From a virus, in IMG/VR virus record IMGVR_UViG_3300045885_000120, positions 1 through 28,945 of that record: 28,945 nucleotides of DNA; one strand, written 5' to 3'. The position numbers were made by a program, and so were the translations under genes. Numbering within the stretch: the first letter of the stretch is position 1; every line of letters begins with the position of its first letter. Positions 1 through 28,346 of this stretch are shown here, one piece after another. Below the pieces are notes generated by a model. The model saw only the letters and a program-made list of their open reading frames with translations, ran no database searches and was not told the origin of the DNA.

Positions 1-463
1 CGCCGGCCGGGTCGTAGCCCTGCAGCATGCTCGCCCGGGCCGCGGCCGCCGGCAGCATCGGGATCGCCTCGGGCGTGCGCAGCGCGTGCGCGAACTGATC
101 GTCGCTGTCCGCCTCCACTTCCTGAATCACCAGCATCTCGCGGTCGAGCGCGCGCTCGTGCGTCTCGGCCGGGAAATCGTCATGCTGGGTATAGTTGGCC
201 GGCTGGGTGCGCGGCGTGTGCCGGCCGATGCGGATCGTCCAGCCGGCGCCCTTGGCGACCGTCGTCGTCACCGTGCCCGGCGCGACGTTGCCGCCGCTCA
301 CCGTATAGTCGGCGCCGAGCAGCAGCAGCGATCGAACGCCGGCCGGGTCAAACCGCTCGACGACAAGGTCGGCCGCGGCAATGAACTGGAAACCGGTCGG
401 CCAGTCCTTGGTCGAGCCATTCTCATCATAGCTGACGGGGACGGCGATGTCGGCGACGGTCAT
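1..463 (-). CDS. Tail fibre protein, N-terminal part (cut by window edge)
   Basis: About 154 residues are visible; the 3' end lies outside the window. The N-terminus resembles the T7 gp17-type tail-fibre attachment domain: a YDENGSTKDWPTGFQF-like opening (about residues 12-27), a repeated beta pattern ending in GADYTVSGG, then a TPRTQP segment and an ERALDRE helix followed by QEV. In that family this domain anchors the fibre to the tail tube, and the distal part, missing here, binds the host receptor. The ATG overlaps the stop of the 816-aa internal protein by 4 bp (ATGA), which fixes the start and indicates translational coupling. I am confident of the fibre assignment by pattern; receptor specificity cannot be judged. 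Confidence 0.8.
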   Translation of the reverse strand, partial: MTVADIAVPVSYDENGSTKDWPTGFQFIAAADLVVERFDPAGVRSLLLLGADYTVSGGNVAPGTVTTTVAKGAGWTIRIGRHTPRTQPANYTQHDDFPAETHERALDREMLVIQEVEADSDDQFAHALRTPEAIPMLPAAAARASMLQGYDPAG

Positions 464-2910
464 GGATTGCCTCCCATGTTGCTCAGTTCAGGCGGCCGGT
501 CCGGCGTCATGTCGCCGGGCTCCCACCAGTATTGCGTGCCAAGATCGTGGGCACGGCGCTCCATCGCGCGCCAGCTCCGGAAATAGGCCGGGTCGGCCGC
601 GGCCTGCCACTGGTCGAGGATGATGCGATCCCACGCCAGGCGCGCGTACCACAGCGAGCCGCCCGGGGTTTCCGATCGCAGCAGCTTCACGAGCTGCCGG
701 TCATAGTCGACCTTCTCGCCCTCGGCCTGCAGCAGCGGCGCTCCGACCACCAGCCCGGCGACGCCGCTCACCGTCGTCGCGCTCGGCCCGAGCAGCGTCT
801 CGCCAAGGCCCTGTCCGCCGCGGTTCTGCGCGCCGAACAGGAAATCGCCATAGATGCCGAGCCCGCCGCCCTGCTGCAGCGCCGCCAGCATGGTCTTGAC
901 GTTCAGCGGCCGCGGGTCCTGGCCCTTGAGGATCGCCTTCGCCTCCAGCGCCAGCCAGCCGGCGGCGGTCGCCGACAGCAGGAAGCTCGCGCCATAGAGC
1001 GCCTTGTTGAACCCGCCCTGCATCGCCAGCATCCGCGCGCCGTGATCGAACAGGATGGTCAGCGGAAAGCCCTTGAACTGGAACAGCGTTTTGGCCAGCT
1101 CGCCCTGCACCGTGCCGGGCCGGCCGAAGCCGGCGACGAACGCGCGCGACCGCACGCCCGGCGTCACCACCGCCATGTCCTGCTCGGTGTAGATCATGCG
1201 CATGATCGTGTCGGCCAGCCGGTCGTCGTCGAGCTGGTCGGGATGGAACCACTTCGATCCGTCCGCCGCCGTCACCAGCGGCGCCGCCTGCATCGCCTGC
1301 CAGTCCGCCGCGCCAATGCCGTAGCGTTCGAACATCGCGCGGAACCGCGGGTCGAGCTCAAGCCAGCCTTTCGCGCCCAGCTCGTCGGTGATGTGCGAGA
1401 GCGTCTCCATGCTGTACGCCATGCGCGAGGCATCGGTGTGCAGCTTCATCCCCGACACCTGCATGACGCCCTCGGCCAGCCGTGCCTGGAACTCGCCGGT
1501 CATTTCCTCGCCGAAGAAACGCGCCTGCGTCGAGAAGCCGGCGGCGACCTCGTCGGCGATGAAACCGAACCGCGCCGCCTGCTCGCGGTTGCCGCTCGAT
1601 GCCAGATAGCTGAGATAGTCGAAGCCGGTCCGGACCGCCGGGATGCCGTTGAACGCGCGGGTCAGCGTCTGCGTCGCCAGATCGGCCGGCAGCGCCGTCA
1701 CCACCGCGCTGCCCAGCTTGCTCGACACCTGATGCGCGCGCAGCCCGCTGCCGATCAGCCGGATCGCGTTGCGCTCGCCGCGGTTGGCCGCGCCCGACAG
1801 CACGCCGAAATAGCCGTCGATCCGGTTCAGCGAGGCCTGCGCGCGCTGCACCGCATCCGATCCGGCGCCGTGCTCCAGCAGCGCCTTGTTCATGATGACA
1901 TCCTTCAGCCAGCGCACCGTCGCCGCCGGATTGGGGCCAAGGATTTCCATCTGCGCGATGTCGCGGGCAAAGCTGTGCAGCTCGCCCATGATCGCGTCGA
2001 ACACATTGGGGTTGCCGTATTTCTCGGCGATCGCCAGCCAGTCGTCGGTCGACTTGTAGACGAAGAACCGCCGGTCCTGGCGCTGGTTGGCCAGCTTCAT
2101 GCCGCCGAACGCGCCTTCCTCGCGCGCTCCGGCGCCCTCGGTGACAATGTCCTGATAGGCCGCCTCGATCGCCGCATCGAGCGCCTCGGGCGTCGGCGCC
2201 TGCCCGGTGGACTGGTCGATCATCGCCTCGCGCTTCAGGCGCTGCAGCATGTCGGCCTTGAATTCGGCCATCGGCACCGCCGCCACCTTCGCCGAATCAT
2301 AGGCCTGCGCGACGCCGCGGTTCTCCAGCCAGCGCACGTTGCCGCCGGCCGCGTTGAACTGCGCGACCTGCAGCTTCTGCATCGCCAGCACCGCCTCGGC
2401 CAGCTCGGCCGCCGACTGGTTGCCGGTTTTCTCGCCGCGCATCTCGCGCAGGATGTCGAGCGTGCCGGCGGAATCGCGCACCATGCCGAGCAGGTTGCGG
2501 CTGTGCTTCTGCAGCACGCCGTTGATCATCGACAGCGCCTGGCGCCGGCGCCGGATTTCCTGATATTCGGCATTGCCTCGCCGGTAGGGCGCGCGGTCGT
2601 CCTTGGCGAAATGCGCCTCGCCCGCCTTGCCCCAGTCGAACTTGCCGGGCCGGCTGCGATAGGTGCCCATCGTCTCCAGCAAATCCTTCTTGACGGTGAT
2701 GTCGAGCAGCACCTGCCGGCGCTGCTCAAGCACCGCCGCGCTCAACTGCTCGACGGTCTGATGACCGGCCGCGGCGTCGGCCGCATATTGCCCGAAGGCC
2801 TGCCGCTGGCGCGTGCGCAGCTTCTCATAGAGCTGCTGCACATAGGCCGCCTGCTCGCGATCGAGCGCGCCCTGCGCGACCAGCTCGGGGATGCAGCGAT
2901 CGAGGCTCAT
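460..2910 (-). CDS. Internal virion protein, gp16-type DNA-ejection channel protein
   Basis: An 816-aa protein placed between the giant multidomain internal protein and the tail fibre, the place where T7-like phages encode their largest ejected core protein. The first 300 residues are mostly charged helices. A segment around residue 280 (FFVYKSTDDWLAIAEKYG) is of a kind I recognise in podoviral internal core proteins. The C-terminal third has hydrophobic stretches near residues 640-655 and 711-728, suited to membrane insertion during ejection. No lysozyme motif is evident; that activity sits in the upstream gene. The ATG overlaps the upstream stop (ATGA). Role by family and context: release from the capsid with the DNA and formation of the trans-envelope conduit. 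The exact homology to gp16 is inferred, not demonstrated. Confidence 0.72.
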   Translation of the reverse strand: MSLDRCIPELVAQGALDREQAAYVQQLYEKLRTRQRQAFGQYAADAAAGHQTVEQLSAAVLEQRRQVLLDITVKKDLLETMGTYRSRPGKFDWGKAGEAHFAKDDRAPYRRGNAEYQEIRRRRQALSMINGVLQKHSRNLLGMVRDSAGTLDILREMRGEKTGNQSAAELAEAVLAMQKLQVAQFNAAGGNVRWLENRGVAQAYDSAKVAAVPMAEFKADMLQRLKREAMIDQSTGQAPTPEALDAAIEAAYQDIVTEGAGAREEGAFGGMKLANQRQDRRFFVYKSTDDWLAIAEKYGNPNVFDAIMGELHSFARDIAQMEILGPNPAATVRWLKDVIMNKALLEHGAGSDAVQRAQASLNRIDGYFGVLSGAANRGERNAIRLIGSGLRAHQVSSKLGSAVVTALPADLATQTLTRAFNGIPAVRTGFDYLSYLASSGNREQAARFGFIADEVAAGFSTQARFFGEEMTGEFQARLAEGVMQVSGMKLHTDASRMAYSMETLSHITDELGAKGWLELDPRFRAMFERYGIGAADWQAMQAAPLVTAADGSKWFHPDQLDDDRLADTIMRMIYTEQDMAVVTPGVRSRAFVAGFGRPGTVQGELAKTLFQFKGFPLTILFDHGARMLAMQGGFNKALYGASFLLSATAAGWLALEAKAILKGQDPRPLNVKTMLAALQQGGGLGIYGDFLFGAQNRGGQGLGETLLGPSATTVSGVAGLVVGAPLLQAEGEKVDYDRQLVKLLRSETPGGSLWYARLAWDRIILDQWQAAADPAYFRSWRAMERRAHDLGTQYWWEPGDMTPDRPPELSNMGGNP

Positions 2911-3041
2911 TCGCCGCCTCCCGGGGTGCCCGGATCGAGGCAGCCGCGCAGCGCGTCGACCGCCGCCTGATTGCGGTCGAGCTGCTCAAGGATTTCCTCG
3001 ACGGTCCACTCGCGCCCAGCCTCATCGAGCCGGATGCGCAT
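2907..3041 (-). CDS. Possible 44-codon gene, also the C-terminal tail of the 1873-aa ORF
   Basis: An ATG at 3041 begins a 44-residue stretch (MRIRLDEAGREWTVEEILEQ at its start) in the same frame as the giant ORF. It starts 5 bp after the stop of the nested frame at 3047-3340. Codon third positions are again strongly GC-rich here, unlike the preceding 90 or so codons of the giant frame, so this piece looks like normal coding sequence. It could be a free-standing small gene fused to the giant ORF only because no stop codon intervenes, or the genuine C-terminal tail of the giant protein. The ribosome-binding site is weak (CCGGA just before ATG). Its stop overlaps the start of the 816-aa gene (ATGA). 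No function is recognised. Confidence 0.35.
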   Translation of the reverse strand: MRIRLDEAGREWTVEEILEQLDRNQAAVDALRGCLDPGTPGGGE

Positions 3042-6000
3042 TCCGGTCAGGCCGGCGGCGGCGGCTGCCGCTTGCGGTCCAGCATCTCCTGCACCTTGCG
3101 CAATCCCCTCACGCCCCGGGCCGCCTCCTCGCGGAACGGCTCCGCCAGCCGCTCGTCCTGGCTCGCCTTCTCCAGCCGGCGTATCAGCTCCGCCCGCTGC
3201 TCGTCCGACATCAGGCCCGGCCGCGGCTTCGGCCCCAGCGGCACCACCCGGGGCCGGCTGCTCAATCCGAACTTCTTCAGCAGCTTCTCGCGCTGCGGGT
3301 CGCTCGTCGATGGCGTAGGGGAATCCGGGGGCGTCGCCATAGTCTGCATCCTCTATCATGAACCCGGCGTCGCGCAAGCGATCGCGCTCCACGGCCTCGA
3401 TCGCCTGCGCCAGCGCGGTTTCCGGATCGTCGCCGGCCAGCCGGTGCTCGATCGCCAGCTCGACCGCCTCCATCGACACGTCGTCCGGCCCGAAGCCATG
3501 TTCGTCGAGCATCGCCGTCAGCTCGCCATAGGCCTCGTTGCCGGCATAGTCGGCCGCCTGCGCCTGCTCCTGCTCACGCGCCAGCGCCTCGGCCTCGGGA
3601 TGATAGACCTCGCCGGCCTGCTTCATCTCCTGCCCGCGGCGCCGCTTGGGTTTCGGCTCGCCGGGCTTGCGTTTGGGCGCCCGGACGCCCTTCTTCTGCG
3701 CCCGCGCGGCGAATGAGGCGCGCTCGATGAGCTGCAGCACTTCATCCTCCAGCGGCCGGTCCACCACCGACGGCGGCCCGAACCATCCGGCTTCCCACAG
3801 CGCCTCGCCAAGATCGTCGATCGACTGGCCGCCGGGCCGGATCAGCGGACCGACGCCGGGGATCAGCCGCTGCAGGTTGCGCTTGTCGATCAGGCCATGC
3901 CCCTCATCGTCGCGGATGCCGCCCATCTCGGCGATCACCCGCAGCAGCGGCTTGGGCTGGCCGTTCCTGAACACCGGCCCCGGCATCGCCACGCCCTCGC
4001 GCTGCAGCGCCGCGCGCGCCGGCCACGCCAGCGGCGGCTCGGCCGGTGGGGCAGTTCCGATTTCTTCACGCGACGGCCTGGCACCAGTCGTCGGTTCCGC
4101 TGCCCCGGTCGGAGCGGCCTCGGCCTCGGCAATTTCCGTCGCGACCGGATGGGCGCCAGGCAGGTCGGCGGGGATCGCCCGCGCCGGCGTGTTGGCGAGC
4201 GCGAAGGCATAGGCGAACGGCTCCGGTGTCAGCGATCGCAGGCCCTCGTTCTTTTCGTCGCGCCCGCGCAGCTTGTGCATCTTCGACCCCTCGGCCGGAT
4301 GCACGTTGGCGGTCGGCAGCACTGGCTCGAAATCGCCCCACAGGTGCGTGCGCTTGGTATAGGGCGAGCCGAAATGATGCGGCTGCATCACCAGCAACGG
4401 CTTGGGCAGGCCGGTCAGGCGCTCGATCCGGCCGGCCGGGTTCTCGATCACGAAGAAGGTATCGGGCTCCAGCCGGGCGATCATCTCCTCGGTGATGAGC
4501 ACCAGCGTCTGGTTATATTCGACCGGCGTGTCGAACATCTGCGCGGCCTTGGCGCCCCACATGCGGGTGACCGCATTGTCCCAAACTCGATCGTGCCGGG
4601 TCGATTGCCAGCGCGCGCCCGAATTGGTGAACGTCGTGCAGGGCGGCTGCGCGATCACGCCGCGGATGCGCGCGCCCTCGGCGACCATCTCGTCCAGCTC
4701 ATCGAGGATGGACTGGAAATCCTCCATCAGATCATGACCGCGCTTCAGGTCGAAGCGGATCACGGTCATGCCCATTTCCTCATAGGGCCTTGAGAAAATG
4801 CCCGACGCGTCGAACAGCGACACGACGACGTCATTCTCGTCGAACTGGCCGGACGCGCGGATGCGCTCGACCTCGGCCTTCCACTCGGCCAGCCGCGCAT
4901 CGGCCACCGCCTGCGGCAGCTCCGGGCCGACATAATGCTCGGTGTGGAACGTGCGCGGCGGCGCCGGCACCACGGTGCTCGGCTCGACCGGCTTGATCTC
5001 CTTCAGCTCCGGCTCGCCCTTGTCGACGAAGGTGATCTTGCCGGCCTTGATCAGCCGCTGCACTTCCTTGTCGGGATCGGCGCCGTCGAGGATGGCGTTC
5101 GCCAGCTCGTCGTGCGTCGCATCGCTATATTCGCCGATCAGCTTGCGCCCCTCGACGCGCACCGCCTGATCGTCGATCGCCCGCCGGATCGCCTCGCCGG
5201 CATCGGCCAGCGCCTGCTCGCCTTCATCGGTCGACGGCACCGCCAGCCAGTCCTCGGCGCCCAGCTCCTTGAGCCGCGCCCTGGCGTCGTCGGCCGTCGC
5301 CACCGGCTCGACCGTGCCGTCGCCGCGCACCAGCTCATAGCCGCCACCCTCGGCCAGCCGCACGTCGATCCGCTCGCCGGCGGCGATGAATTCCTGCGCC
5401 GGCACCATGCCAAGATCGAGCGCCGACACCATGCCCGGCGGGAACAGCGTCTCGCGAACGCCCGGCGCCGGCGCCGCCTCGCGCACCGTCGGCGCGAGCC
5501 ACCCCATCGCCTCGGCATATCCTTCCGGATAGTTGTCGGGATCAAAATCCTCCGGCATCGGCTCGTCCGGATACCGCACCATGAAGCCCGGTTCGTCCGG
5601 CTCGAATCCGAAACGCTGATAGAATTCGACGTTCCTCGGCTGCTCCGGCTTGACATAGACGGCCAGGCGCAGCTCGTCGGCGCGCTCGGCCAGCCTTTCC
5701 ATGACGCGCGTGCCCGCGCCTGTCCCGGTCGTGCGCGCATAAAGATCGGTCAGTTCGACCGCGACCGGCGGCAGGTCCGTTTCGCCAAGCCCGCCCATCC
5801 CATCGCGAATCTGGATCACCAGATCGACGCCCTGCTCATCGGCAAAGGCCTTCATTTCCTCGGCGAACGCGCGACCCGCCGCGCCGACGTCATCGGCCGC
5901 CGGCGCCGCCGGCGCCGCCGCCTCCGGCGCCTCCGGCAGTCTGATCGACTGCACCCGCGACAGGTCCGTCGTTTCCCGCCCGCGACGCGCTCCCGTTACC

Positions 6001-8528
6001 CGCTCGCCCTTCAGCTCCTTCAGCTCGGGTGCCACTTCATGCAGCCGCCGCATTATGTCGCGGACTTGCGCCGCGCCGAGCGCGCCGGGGCCGGGACCGG
6101 CAATGTCGATGCTGCCGACGCCATCCTCGTCAATGTGGACGGTCGCCGCAATCTCGCCGCCATATCCCATTTCGATCAGCGTCGTGCCGTCTGACAGCTC
6201 AGTCCGGTAGATACTCAACTCACCGGTCACCCGCTCGGCCGCCTCCAGCTCCATGCGCAGGTCGTGCTCAAGGCTGGCCGTCTGCAGCTCGGGACCGTCG
6301 CCGCCCGGCTCCACCCAGCGGTCCAGCTCGTGCGGATCGGCGCCGGTCGGCAGCGTGTCGTCGATCAGATCGTTCGCCACGTCCGGCGGCTGCCGGCCGG
6401 CGGTGCGGCGGGCGAGGATGCGATCGCGGAGTTGCTGCTCGGAAAGGCCGCGGATGCCGGCCGCCTCCAGCGCCTGCAGCTCGGCATAATATTCGTCGGC
6501 GAAAATCTCCGGCCGGCGCCCGGCCGCGACCGCCAGCAAATCCTCGCGGCCGGTGACGTGGCCGATTTCCTCCATCAGCACCGTCGACAGCGCGTCGGAA
6601 TTGGCCAGATCGTCCGCCACATCGGCCGCCGGCCGCGGCGTGCCCTTCGCACCGACGCGGAACCGCGGGCCATAATCGAGCAGCTTGATGCCGCCCTTCT
6701 GCGCCGCCATCAGCAGCCTGCGGTCGCTGGAGTCGTAGAGCTGGCCCATGTCCTCGCCGGCCTCGGCGATGCGCGCCAGGCGCTGCTCAAGCCGGGCCAG
6801 CGCATCATCGGGGCTCGCCGGCGGCGGCGTCGCGCGGGCCGCCAGCATCTCGTTCGTCGGCGCCTCGGCGGTGCCGATCGGATAGACCGGCCCGGCCTCG
6901 GCGCCGCGCAGCTCCGCTTCAAGCGCCTCCTGCGCCAGCCGGTGCTCCAGCGGGTCGGCGAACTGATCCGGGTCGAGCTGCGGGAATTCCTCGACCGACG
7001 CGACATCCGGCGCCTCGGGCGCCATGCCGGCCGGGAACGCCGGCCGCTCCACGTCCGGCGCCGCCGCCTCGCCCTCGGGCAGCGGCTCCGCGCCGGGCTC
7101 GATCTCGCCGCGCTCGCGGCCCAGCGCCGCCGCGCCGCGCCTCAGATCGCCCTCGGTTTCCGCGCCCTTCGCCGGCCGCATGAACTTCTTGATGTAGGCA
7201 TCGAGCACCTGCGTCTCGTCGCCCGCGGCCAGCACATGGCGGCCGCCATGGTCGCCGCCCTGCAGCTCCCAGTGCAGGAACTCGAGCTGCTGCTGGCGGG
7301 TCGGATTGGGGCCATAGCGGCGGTGCAGCTCGGCCTTGCGGCTGCCGAGCCACTGGCCGAGCCCCTGCGCGCCTGAATCGGGATTGATCGCCGTGTGATC
7401 GCCGCCGCGGGACTCGGCGGCGATGCCCGCCGCGATGCCACGCGCCTGCGCCTCGCTATAGCCCTTGCCGAGAAAGAACTGGACGATGTCGGCCGGCAGC
7501 GTCGGCGTCACCCGATGCGGCCGCGGCGCCCGGTGCGTCGGCGCCTGCGGCGTGCCGGCCGCGACCGAATTCGGCCCCAGCGTCTCGCGGATCGCCGCGT
7601 CGGTGCGCGCCACATGCTGCGCCGAGCCATCCGGCCCGGTGAACGGATTGGCCTCGGCGATGTCGCTGGTGCGGTTGACGACGTTGGTCGCGGCGCGCTG
7701 CTCGGGCGTCAGATTGTCGCCCATCAGGTCGTTGACCGTGTCGGCCAGCGCGCGGCTGCGCACCGTGCCGGCGCGGCGCCGGCGCCATACCTGGCCGCCC
7801 AGCTCGACGCCGCCCTCCAGCACGCCGCCAAGGATCGCATCGACGGTGACGTCGAGCGCCGCGTCGATCGCGCCATATTCCATGCCGGCTGCCTCGGCAT
7901 CGACCATCGTCGGGGCAATCAGCGCCGCGCTCATCGCCGCATTGGTCGCCGCCCCGCGCAGCGTCGCCGACAGCACCGCCCGGCCGCCAGTCAGCCCGGC
8001 CGCCGCCTCGCCGCCGATCGGGATGTAATTGATCGGGTCAGTCAGCCCATAGGCCAGCGCACCGCCGATCTGCGCGGTGAACGGCGAATCCTTCATCATC
8101 AGGTCGAGCCGCGCCGTCTCGCGCCGCCGCTCGCCTTGCGCCCATGACTGCATCGTCACGCCGTCGACCACGCCGGGCATGTCGATCAGCAGCCCGCGCC
8201 GGTGCAGCTCGCGCACGCCCTGCCAGTAGGTATCGGCCTGCGCGACGATCTGCCTGGCCCACGCATTGTTCGGATTGACCGCGAGCTGCCGGCGCGCGAC
8301 CGACTCCTGATAGGGATAGACGACCGCCGGCATTCCGGCCTTGGCCCGCGCCTTGTCGATCCGGTCGTGCCCCTCGCCGACCATCGCCGACTGATTGCGC
8401 CCATAGTCGGGCGCCACGCCGGCGCGCTGGAACGAAAGCCGGGCGGTGTCGAACCACGGCAGCGGCGAGGCCTGCGCGCCCTCTGGGCTGACCGGGTTCA
8501 TCTGCAGGACGGACGTCGGGCCGGCCAT
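2907..8528 (-). CDS. Giant multidomain (polyvalent-type) internal virion protein with lysozyme, GNAT and DNA methyltransferase-like domains
   Basis: An 1873-aa protein. Visible parts in order: N-terminal virion region with a small-residue-rich, hydrophobic stretch (about 155-240); phage tail-lysozyme-like domain (about 344-425, candidate catalytic Glu372 in AGIAAESRGG, then GAQGLGQW); an acidic, Pro/Ala-rich linker; a zincin-like but degenerate EEIGH (653-657); a region ending in KGERVTGARR (about 770-850); a GNAT acetyltransferase domain (about 900-988, RTTGTGAG at 932-939, FYQRFGFE); a cytosine-C5-methyltransferase-like domain (about 1234-1400: SLFDASGIF, PPC at 1295-1297, ENP at 1362-1364, YTKRTHLWG); and a conserved-looking module (about 1500-1605, GGIRDDEGHGL and LWEAGWFGP). 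Residues about 1743-1829 are Ala/Gly-rich with atypical codons because another frame is coding there. The gene abuts the upstream stop (TAA then ATG). Likely ejected with DNA to digest cell wall and perhaps protect incoming DNA; activities are inferred. Confidence 0.8.
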   Translation of the reverse strand: MAGPTSVLQMNPVSPEGAQASPLPWFDTARLSFQRAGVAPDYGRNQSAMVGEGHDRIDKARAKAGMPAVVYPYQESVARRQLAVNPNNAWARQIVAQADTYWQGVRELHRRGLLIDMPGVVDGVTMQSWAQGERRRETARLDLMMKDSPFTAQIGGALAYGLTDPINYIPIGGEAAAGLTGGRAVLSATLRGAATNAAMSAALIAPTMVDAEAAGMEYGAIDAALDVTVDAILGGVLEGGVELGGQVWRRRRAGTVRSRALADTVNDLMGDNLTPEQRAATNVVNRTSDIAEANPFTGPDGSAQHVARTDAAIRETLGPNSVAAGTPQAPTHRAPRPHRVTPTLPADIVQFFLGKGYSEAQARGIAAGIAAESRGGDHTAINPDSGAQGLGQWLGSRKAELHRRYGPNPTRQQQLEFLHWELQGGDHGGRHVLAAGDETQVLDAYIKKFMRPAKGAETEGDLRRGAAALGRERGEIEPGAEPLPEGEAAAPDVERPAFPAGMAPEAPDVASVEEFPQLDPDQFADPLEHRLAQEALEAELRGAEAGPVYPIGTAEAPTNEMLAARATPPPASPDDALARLEQRLARIAEAGEDMGQLYDSSDRRLLMAAQKGGIKLLDYGPRFRVGAKGTPRPAADVADDLANSDALSTVLMEEIGHVTGREDLLAVAAGRRPEIFADEYYAELQALEAAGIRGLSEQQLRDRILARRTAGRQPPDVANDLIDDTLPTGADPHELDRWVEPGGDGPELQTASLEHDLRMELEAAERVTGELSIYRTELSDGTTLIEMGYGGEIAATVHIDEDGVGSIDIAGPGPGALGAAQVRDIMRRLHEVAPELKELKGERVTGARRGRETTDLSRVQSIRLPEAPEAAAPAAPAADDVGAAGRAFAEEMKAFADEQGVDLVIQIRDGMGGLGETDLPPVAVELTDLYARTTGTGAGTRVMERLAERADELRLAVYVKPEQPRNVEFYQRFGFEPDEPGFMVRYPDEPMPEDFDPDNYPEGYAEAMGWLAPTVREAAPAPGVRETLFPPGMVSALDLGMVPAQEFIAAGERIDVRLAEGGGYELVRGDGTVEPVATADDARARLKELGAEDWLAVPSTDEGEQALADAGEAIRRAIDDQAVRVEGRKLIGEYSDATHDELANAILDGADPDKEVQRLIKAGKITFVDKGEPELKEIKPVEPSTVVPAPPRTFHTEHYVGPELPQAVADARLAEWKAEVERIRASGQFDENDVVVSLFDASGIFSRPYEEMGMTVIRFDLKRGHDLMEDFQSILDELDEMVAEGARIRGVIAQPPCTTFTNSGARWQSTRHDRVWDNAVTRMWGAKAAQMFDTPVEYNQTLVLITEEMIARLEPDTFFVIENPAGRIERLTGLPKPLLVMQPHHFGSPYTKRTHLWGDFEPVLPTANVHPAEGSKMHKLRGRDEKNEGLRSLTPEPFAYAFALANTPARAIPADLPGAHPVATEIAEAEAAPTGAAEPTTGARPSREEIGTAPPAEPPLAWPARAALQREGVAMPGPVFRNGQPKPLLRVIAEMGGIRDDEGHGLIDKRNLQRLIPGVGPLIRPGGQSIDDLGEALWEAGWFGPPSVVDRPLEDEVLQLIERASFAARAQKKGVRAPKRKPGEPKPKRRRGQEMKQAGEVYHPEAEALAREQEQAQAADYAGNEAYGELTAMLDEHGFGPDDVSMEAVELAIEHRLAGDDPETALAQAIEAVERDRLRDAGFMIEDADYGDAPGFPYAIDERPAAREAAEEVRIEQPAPGGAAGAEAAAGPDVGRAAGGADTPAGEGEPGRAAGGAVPRGGGPGREGIAQGAGDAGPQAAAAAAGLTGMRIRLDEAGREWTVEEILEQLDRNQAAVDALRGCLDPGTPGGGE
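3047..3340 (-). CDS. Nested small gene in an alternative frame of the giant internal-protein gene
   Basis: A 97-aa reading frame (MATPPDSPTPSTSDPQREKL at its start) lies entirely inside the 1873-aa ORF, in the +1 frame relative to it. The residues look like a real soluble protein: a Pro/Ser-rich N-terminus, then charged helices with LLKKFGL, SDEQRAELIRRLEKASQDER and LRKVQEMLDRK. By hand count roughly nine tenths of its codons end in G or C, against about half for the giant frame across the same bases, so selection appears to act on this frame. An AGAGG lies 9 nt before the ATG at 3340; an alternative ATG is at 3349. Function unknown. It may be a separate small protein, or the giant ORF may have lost its stop and run over it. 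Confidence 0.6.
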   Translation of the reverse strand: MATPPDSPTPSTSDPQREKLLKKFGLSSRPRVVPLGPKPRPGLMSDEQRAELIRRLEKASQDERLAEPFREEAARGVRGLRKVQEMLDRKRQPPPPA

Positions 8529-27732: not shown

Positions 27733-28346
27733 TCGCCTCCGTTCCCCGGTAGATCATCCTCCGGCCGCGCGACGCGCACCGCCTCGCCGTCGATCGCCGC
27801 ATCGCGCAGGTCGTGCCCGCCGATTTCCTCGATGATCTTGACGCCGAGAATCCGGGCGTCGATCGCCACCGGCTTCTTCGAATGGACGTAGGGCATCAGG
27901 CCCTCCGCGCAGCGGACGCGCAGGCTCTGCGCCTCGTAATAGCTCATGCTCTCCTCGACGGTCACCAGCCGGTCCTTGACGATCTTGGTAACGGTGCGCT
28001 TGCTCGCCTCGACCAGCAGCTCCGGCGGCGTCGTCTGGATTTGCATCATGGTCACCGCCGGGTCCTGCCCGAAGCTGCGGATGTACCGTTCGAAATCGTC
28101 GGTCCGCCGGTTGCGGACGCCCTGCGGCCGGCCGCGCCTGGTAGCTCGCGCGTGGCGCACGACGGTCAGGTCGCCGGCGTTGCCGCCCAGCTCCTCGCGC
28201 GCCTCGGCGATTTCCTCCGGCGTCGGCGGGTCGAGCAGGTCGAGTTGCGTTTCCTCGGCCTCGGCCGCGGCCAGCAGCTCGCGCGACGTGTCGACCGCCT
28301 GCCGGGCGACGGCTTCGAAGCCGTCCATTTTCTGCGGCGACGTCAC
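27729..28346 (-). CDS. Small-terminase-like protein
   Basis: About 205 aa from a GTG at 28346 (GAGGG just upstream), or 199 aa from the ATG at 28328; longer starts at 28427 or 28640 are possible but less coding-like. Features: helical N-terminus (EAVARQAVDTSRELLAAAEA), a basic TRRGRPQGVRNRRTDDFERY segment typical of TerS-like or DNA-binding proteins of this placement, then a helical core with AVTMMQIQTTPPELLVEASK and RVRCAEGLMPYVHSKKP. In phages of this type such a protein selects DNA and hands it to the large terminase. It is unusually far from terL here (about 4 kb). It heads the late operon. The assignment is by pattern and is tentative. Confidence 0.55.
   Translation of the reverse strand: MTSPQKMDGFEAVARQAVDTSRELLAAAEAEETQLDLLDPPTPEEIAEAREELGGNAGDLTVVRHARATRRGRPQGVRNRRTDDFERYIRSFGQDPAVTMMQIQTTPPELLVEASKRTVTKIVKDRLVTVEESMSYYEAQSLRVRCAEGLMPYVHSKKPVAIDARILGVKIIEEIGGHDLRDAAIDGEAVRVARPEDDLPGNGGE

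Follow-up and report, generated by a model that had tools for sequence, protein, structure and literature searches.

Does a small open reading frame (ORF) that lies wholly within a much larger one, on the same strand and in another frame, encode a protein of its own, or is it an echo of the gene that contains it? The question is raised by a 28,945-base virus fragment from IMG/VR (the window) which carries podovirus virion genes on its minus strand, and in which the ORF at 3047-3340 on that strand is buried near the 3' end of a gene for a giant protein related to gp16 of phage epsilon15. The analysis described here indicates that this ORF very probably constitutes a gene in its own right, overprinted in +1 on the gene for an epsilon15 gp16-like ejection protein. 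Four features exceed what chance would supply in these comparisons of sequences: the codon bias, homologues that keep to the same frame, synonymous sites that are frozen, and Shine-Dalgarno sequences.

The nested frame and its homologues

The nested ORF ends with a stop at 3047 and starts either at ATG 3340 (97 residues) or at an upstream ATG at 3349 (100 residues), immediately before which the nested frame holds the stops TGA and TAG; it overlaps residues ~1729-1827 of the giant protein. Over the bases common to both frames (3047-3349), the GC content at codon positions 1, 2 and 3 is 0.71/0.53/0.92 in the nested frame vs 0.93/0.72/0.53 in the giant frame. Third-position GC content in the giant gene is 0.86 overall, ~0.88 just upstream of the overlap and 0.80 in its tail. 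An earlier, sequence-only reading of the window had estimated this contrast by hand as about nine tenths against about half, and had described the giant frame as normal on either side; both estimates agree with the frame-by-frame values. In a codon-usage scan the nested ORF obtained a coding score of 42.4, the top of its family. Length alone is not rare, since among the +1-frame ORFs of at least 35 residues that begin with ATG in 203 related giant genes, 38 of 755 reach 97 residues or more.

Related loci were fetched via the neighbouring gp17-like protein, yielding 237 loci, some of which repeat one contig. When the nested protein was compared with them by local tblastn, weak matches appeared in L182, L178 and L098, each in the +1 frame inside a giant ORF that continues through the match. 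A profile hidden Markov model (HMM), trained on matches lying inside another long ORF and iterated over all six frames of the 237 loci, then defined a family, F1, with 26 carriers used (33 matches including duplicates), all in the +1 frame of a homologous giant ORF and falling into 19 clusters at 55% identity. The carriers share the core motif D.RL(S/T).ETR.KA. Among them are prophages of Novosphingobium sp. ST904 (L128), Sphingomonas sanguinis NBRC 13937 (L091) and Aurantiacibacter zhengii (L098). They include L079, an early weak tblastn match that had been set aside as not being in the giant frame and is a true +1 member; a prophage that took no part in model training, L251, also holds F1 in +1 (E 1e-14). 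The same six-frame search found no convincing match outside a giant gene; a match at offset 2 in L155 was dismissed as a chance hit. Since F1 is so diverged, searches with a single sequence fail: no relative of the window's nested protein was found by exact-peptide search of viral contigs or by tblastn in annotated phages, and a search of 398 genomes from a single family that includes Sphingomonas likewise gave none.

The nested gene of most carriers is flanked on one side by a giant segment often ending in D-Y-(D/E), the Tyr codon of which overlaps the nested ATG, and on the other by a conserved segment resembling FDDP.G......SL.HD.R; between the two, the giant frame reads as a linker rich in Ala, Gly and Asp. 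The window differs in that its SLEHDLR segment is found elsewhere in the giant protein, and the tail follows directly after the nested gene.

Evidence of selection was sought in these relatives. In five independent pairs, 17 of 126 fourfold-degenerate sites of the giant frame had changed in the overlap vs 387 of 980 in the flanks (p=1e-9); the depletion holds in each pair (p<0.03), and none of 20,000 random window sets was as low. The most diverged pairs, those with L178, display no synonymous depletion and were left out of this test. Conservation at the same bases is greater in the nested frame than in the giant frame, with a mean BLOSUM62 score per site of 0.67 vs 0.15. The giant frame is free of stops through the overlap in all carriers. 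With the nested proteins and the local codon use taken as fixed, the probability of this over 22 carriers is ~1e-14, which indicates that the giant frame too is kept open. Both frames are thus, as far as patterns of substitution can tell, under selection at the same bases in the relatives. The sequence-only reading had specified that its proposal would suffer if relatives conserved the giant residues here while none kept the nested frame open, and the opposite was found; its suggestion of a small gene overprinted in the giant one gains from the 19 diverged clusters, the invariable +1 offset, the frozen synonymous sites and the Shine-Dalgarno starts.

These observations also bear on a simpler account, in which two compensating indels, genuine or introduced in sequencing, carry the giant protein into the other frame for ~250 bases of a gene that makes a single protein. 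The giant frame does resemble a frameshifted shadow over this stretch, with normal sequence before and after it, and the two frames could be connected by inserting 1 nucleotide near 3303 and deleting 1 near 3050. However, the same +1 arrangement, complete with Shine-Dalgarno sequence and start, recurs in other families as well as in 25 further F1 carriers, while the giant frame of the relatives runs stop-free across the overlap, its fourfold sites frozen together with the nested frame. The indels are thus extremely improbable, and an indel near 3300, which the sequence-only reading had listed as a possible refutation, was discarded in view of the many unrelated sequences with an identical arrangement.

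The start signals add a further line of evidence. Shine-Dalgarno matches of 4 or more nucleotides precede 16 of 22 nested F1 starts vs 80 of the 598 remaining +1 ATGs (p=1e-9), and AGG-N9-ATG is present in 12 of 22 F1 members vs 26 of 600. A conserved ATG and Shine-Dalgarno sequence at the nested start are at odds with programmed +1 frameshifting, by which, in place of internal initiation, a truncated giant protein would acquire the nested sequence as its C-terminus. The constant +1 offset is what such a process would leave; the TGA and TAG that precede ATG 3349 in the window, and an upstream extension of the nested ORF that lacks conservation in F1, argue against it, making frameshifting a highly improbable source of the pattern.

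Sequence alone could hardly make a stronger case for a conserved overprinted gene; several points weigh against it. Expression is a prediction from sequence. The window sequence has no close relative, the nearest being prophages of Sphingomonas, Novosphingobium and allies at ~40% identity in the neighbouring 816-residue protein, so that selection was measured in relatives and not in the window itself. The F1 starts were picked partly with Shine-Dalgarno sequences in view, for which reason the figures obtained under a fixed start rule in the other families (see below) matter. The constancy of the +1 frame is partly an effect of composition, with 755 chance ORFs in +1 vs 79 in +2; as ATG ORFs are some ten times commoner in +1, frame constancy alone is weak evidence. 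The function proposed below, finally, is assigned from gene position alone.

Probable expression and possible role of the nested protein

If the overprinted gene is expressed as its signals suggest, an internal start by ribosomes at GAGG-N9-ATG of the late virion mRNA would generate a separate, soluble, helical protein of ~45-130 residues (97 in the window), while ribosomes in the giant frame would translate these bases into a flexible linker, rich in Ala, Gly and Asp, ahead of the conserved tail. AlphaFold2, run on the F1 alignment with one locus from an annotated record left out, predicts two confident helices, at 46-61 and 67-91 (predicted local distance difference test score ~95), and an N-terminal half of low confidence.

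Position within a virion operon offers a first guess at function, together with the precedent of gp6.7 and gp7.3 of T7, which are small ejected core or tail proteins (PMC11784390). The likeness is that of small proteins from a podovirus virion region, an analogy of role drawn from gene position. The genes for gp6.7 and gp7.3 are separate and non-nested, which sets them apart from F1. On this footing the best guess, a tentative one, is that the nested protein is a small co-expressed partner in the assembly or ejection of internal virion proteins.

A serious rival, of only slightly lower probability, accepts the nested gene as real and has its product act in the host cell, for instance in host regulation or defence, rather than as a virion or ejection factor. 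It draws on the small cellular protein YaeP (UPF0253), which is both the best profile match to solved structures (5h1n_A, E 0.002) and the top fold match (E 1.2, probability 0.72), and on the giant protein itself, whose enzymatic domains are of the polyvalent type, a class believed to act against functions of the host (PMC5512222). Against it stand the location of the nested gene in a late virion cluster, inside an ejection-protein gene, and the shortness of the YaeP match, which falls under every curated cut-off. The alignment covers a 27-residue stretch, D..L(S/T)...R.KA...A, and leaves the rest of YaeP unaligned; the best NCBIfam score is 18.8 bits (E 0.0014) vs a cut-off of 99, with no member above it. 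A match to DUF7645, at 19.2 bits vs a Pfam gathering threshold of 27, is limited to the window's member. The similarity to YaeP is only a lead.

Further nested families

The codon-usage scan of the 203 giant genes identified 30 +1 ORFs with a nested coding score >5 vs none in +2. The top of the scan lists consists of boundary artefacts (e.g. L078, L071, L211 and L181), which arise because a stop-to-stop ORF overlaps the preceding gene; a few of these are among the 30. One group, F1R, is present in nine loci of Rhizobiales prophages (L122, L126, L150, L129, L114, L116, L120, L132 and L134), nested in +1 at the corresponding place in the giant gene and similar to F1 (hhalign E 5e-4). F2, with 100 matches, 79 of them distinct and all in +1, stems mostly from marine podovirus contigs and has the pattern LS.EQL..A......LA..DALSML.RK. 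F3 comprises 27 matches that lie inside a giant ORF, all in +1 and 140-300 nucleotides before the giant stop, with a Ser/Thr-rich start followed by FDYDE.E.RA. It often accompanies F2 in one gene, as in L017, L032, L047, L166 and L233.

Under the fixed start rule, Shine-Dalgarno starts were recorded for 8 of 9 F1R, 63 of 100 F2 and 22 of 27 F3 members. Fourfold sites of the giant frame are depleted of changes in each family: 28 of 137 in the overlap vs 131 of 341 in the flanks for F1R (p=9e-5), 162 of 1124 vs 1967 of 5314 for F2 (p=3e-54, with one pair entered twice, as two loci) and 12 of 131 vs 208 of 659 for F3 (p=1e-8). In F2 the third position of the giant codon is less variable than the first; F3 is the weakest family on frame-specific identity. 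Taken together, the gp16-like gene of alphaproteobacterial and marine podoviruses is likely to be a recurrent site of overprinting, in which at least three apparently unrelated +1 families (F1/F1R, F2 and F3) occupy linkers, sometimes two per gene and many with their own ribosome-binding site, and encode unannotated late proteins that are possibly part of the virion or ejected.

The giant gene, its annotation and the meaning of the nesting

The coordinates of the features under discussion are collected below.

Features of the window and examples of nested genes in related loci (the latter in coordinates of their own locus)
Feature	Coordinates	Strand	Remarks
Nested gene, family F1	3047..3340	-	97 codons + stop; +1 frame of giant; core motif LEKASQDERLAEPFREEAARG
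Shine-Dalgarno-like GAGG	3350..3353	-	9 nucleotides before ATG 3340
Giant ORF	2907..8528	-	1873 residues; epsilon15 gp16-like presumed ejection (polyvalent) protein; contains nested gene
Phage tail lysozyme domain PF18013	7128..7490	-	within giant; E 3e-13
DNA cytosine methyltransferase-like domain	4173..4847	-	within giant; phrog_757, E 7e-33
Conserved giant-frame module	3717..3956	-	residues ~1525-1604, GGIRDDEGH...GPLIRPGGQSIDDLGEALWEAGWFGPP; upstream of nested gene; tblastn vs related loci
Conserved C-terminal tail of giant	2907..3041	-	tails of ~75 relatives; tblastn of tail
gp17-like gene	460..2910	-	816 residues; phrog_684; directly after giant
F2 examples	L206:5710-5835, L188:5143-5280, L089:6421-6540		
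F3 examples	L017:5634-5816, L047:5586-5717, L233:6691-6825		

The giant gene occupies the position of epsilon15 gp16, with which it shares the gene order before the gp17-like gene and a C-terminal tail with a conserved terminal Cys; it differs in being ~3 times longer and in carrying extra domains. With its lysozyme and methyltransferase-like domains it has the appearance of an ejected polyvalent protein as that class is understood in PMC5512222, and by analogy with its relatives it is presumed to be located in the virion and ejected. The methyltransferase-like domain has close matches on Pseudomonas plasmids that are annotated as DNA cytosine methyltransferases, and as the protein is also longer than most of its relatives, it appears to have been domain-shuffled. 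A 35-base match (86%) links 5147-5181, within the giant gene, to 27764-27798 at the far end of the window, and is possibly due to chance in GC-rich DNA. The 816-residue protein has tblastn matches to epsilon15 gp17 and its relatives; other virion genes on the minus strand encode a head-tail connector and a tail protein (phrog_376).

The 44 codons that follow the nested gene decide a further issue, since the sequence-only reading had offered, as its second option, a giant gene that lost its original stop and now overruns a small gene as far as this 44-codon piece, which would then be separate from it. This piece does have an ATG directly after the nested stop. In ~75 relatives, however, the ORF before the gp17-like gene ends in a tail of like kind, acidic and closing on a conserved Cys, which usually overlaps the start of the next gene as ATGA, just as the giant stop and the start of the 816-residue gene do in the window, and tblastn with the window's 44 codons retrieves these tails directly. 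As the tail is conserved and lies in the giant frame in nearly all relatives, that frame is real downstream of the nested gene, and F1 carriers keep it open across the nested gene as well; a lost stop is therefore scarcely credible, and the piece is the conserved C-terminus of the giant protein.

The overprinted genes have left little trace in annotation. No gene is listed inside the gp16-like gene of ten annotated cultured phages (VP2, Skadi-4, HTVC100P, epsilon15, Piluca, YeP5, YA3, 23E28.1, phiV10 and SI2), and only SI2 has a detectable member, an F2 gene (E 3e-4) that is unannotated; epsilon15 and phiV10 differ in having no detectable F1-F3 gene. Tblastn of the F2 consensus in annotated phages gave no match, Pfam, PHROGs and NCBIfam hold no family for F1, and no description of such nested genes was found in the open-access full-text literature, of which coverage was incomplete. 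It is of note that SI2 (Dunaliella viridis virus SI2, NC_023841), whose F2 gene lies at L005:7407-7694, has an algal host on record and a virion gene set as in alphaproteobacterial podoviruses; the recorded host may be wrong.

Overprinting is familiar in small viruses; long conserved nested genes have rarely been documented in tailed double-stranded DNA phages. Nested same-strand genes of viruses and bacteria have been reviewed (PMC8227390) and surveyed (PMC8903798), the survey finding that annotated overlaps of double-stranded DNA viruses are mostly very short. The genes described here resemble known overprinted genes in being full genes set in a different frame of an older one, in having a start of their own and in the constraint on both frames, and differ in forming a conserved, unannotated family of 130-400 nucleotides in a virion gene of tailed double-stranded DNA phages.

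Nested genes are present in over half of the 237 loci, within a widespread virion gene family, and gene callers that disallow long overlaps will systematically miss them. Virion proteomics and ribosome profiling have ready-made targets in the nested families, which also amount to a natural experiment in which the linkers of large modular proteins turn into sites of new genes. Many related phages harbour such hidden genes without annotation, so that they probably produce small proteins which have escaped notice.
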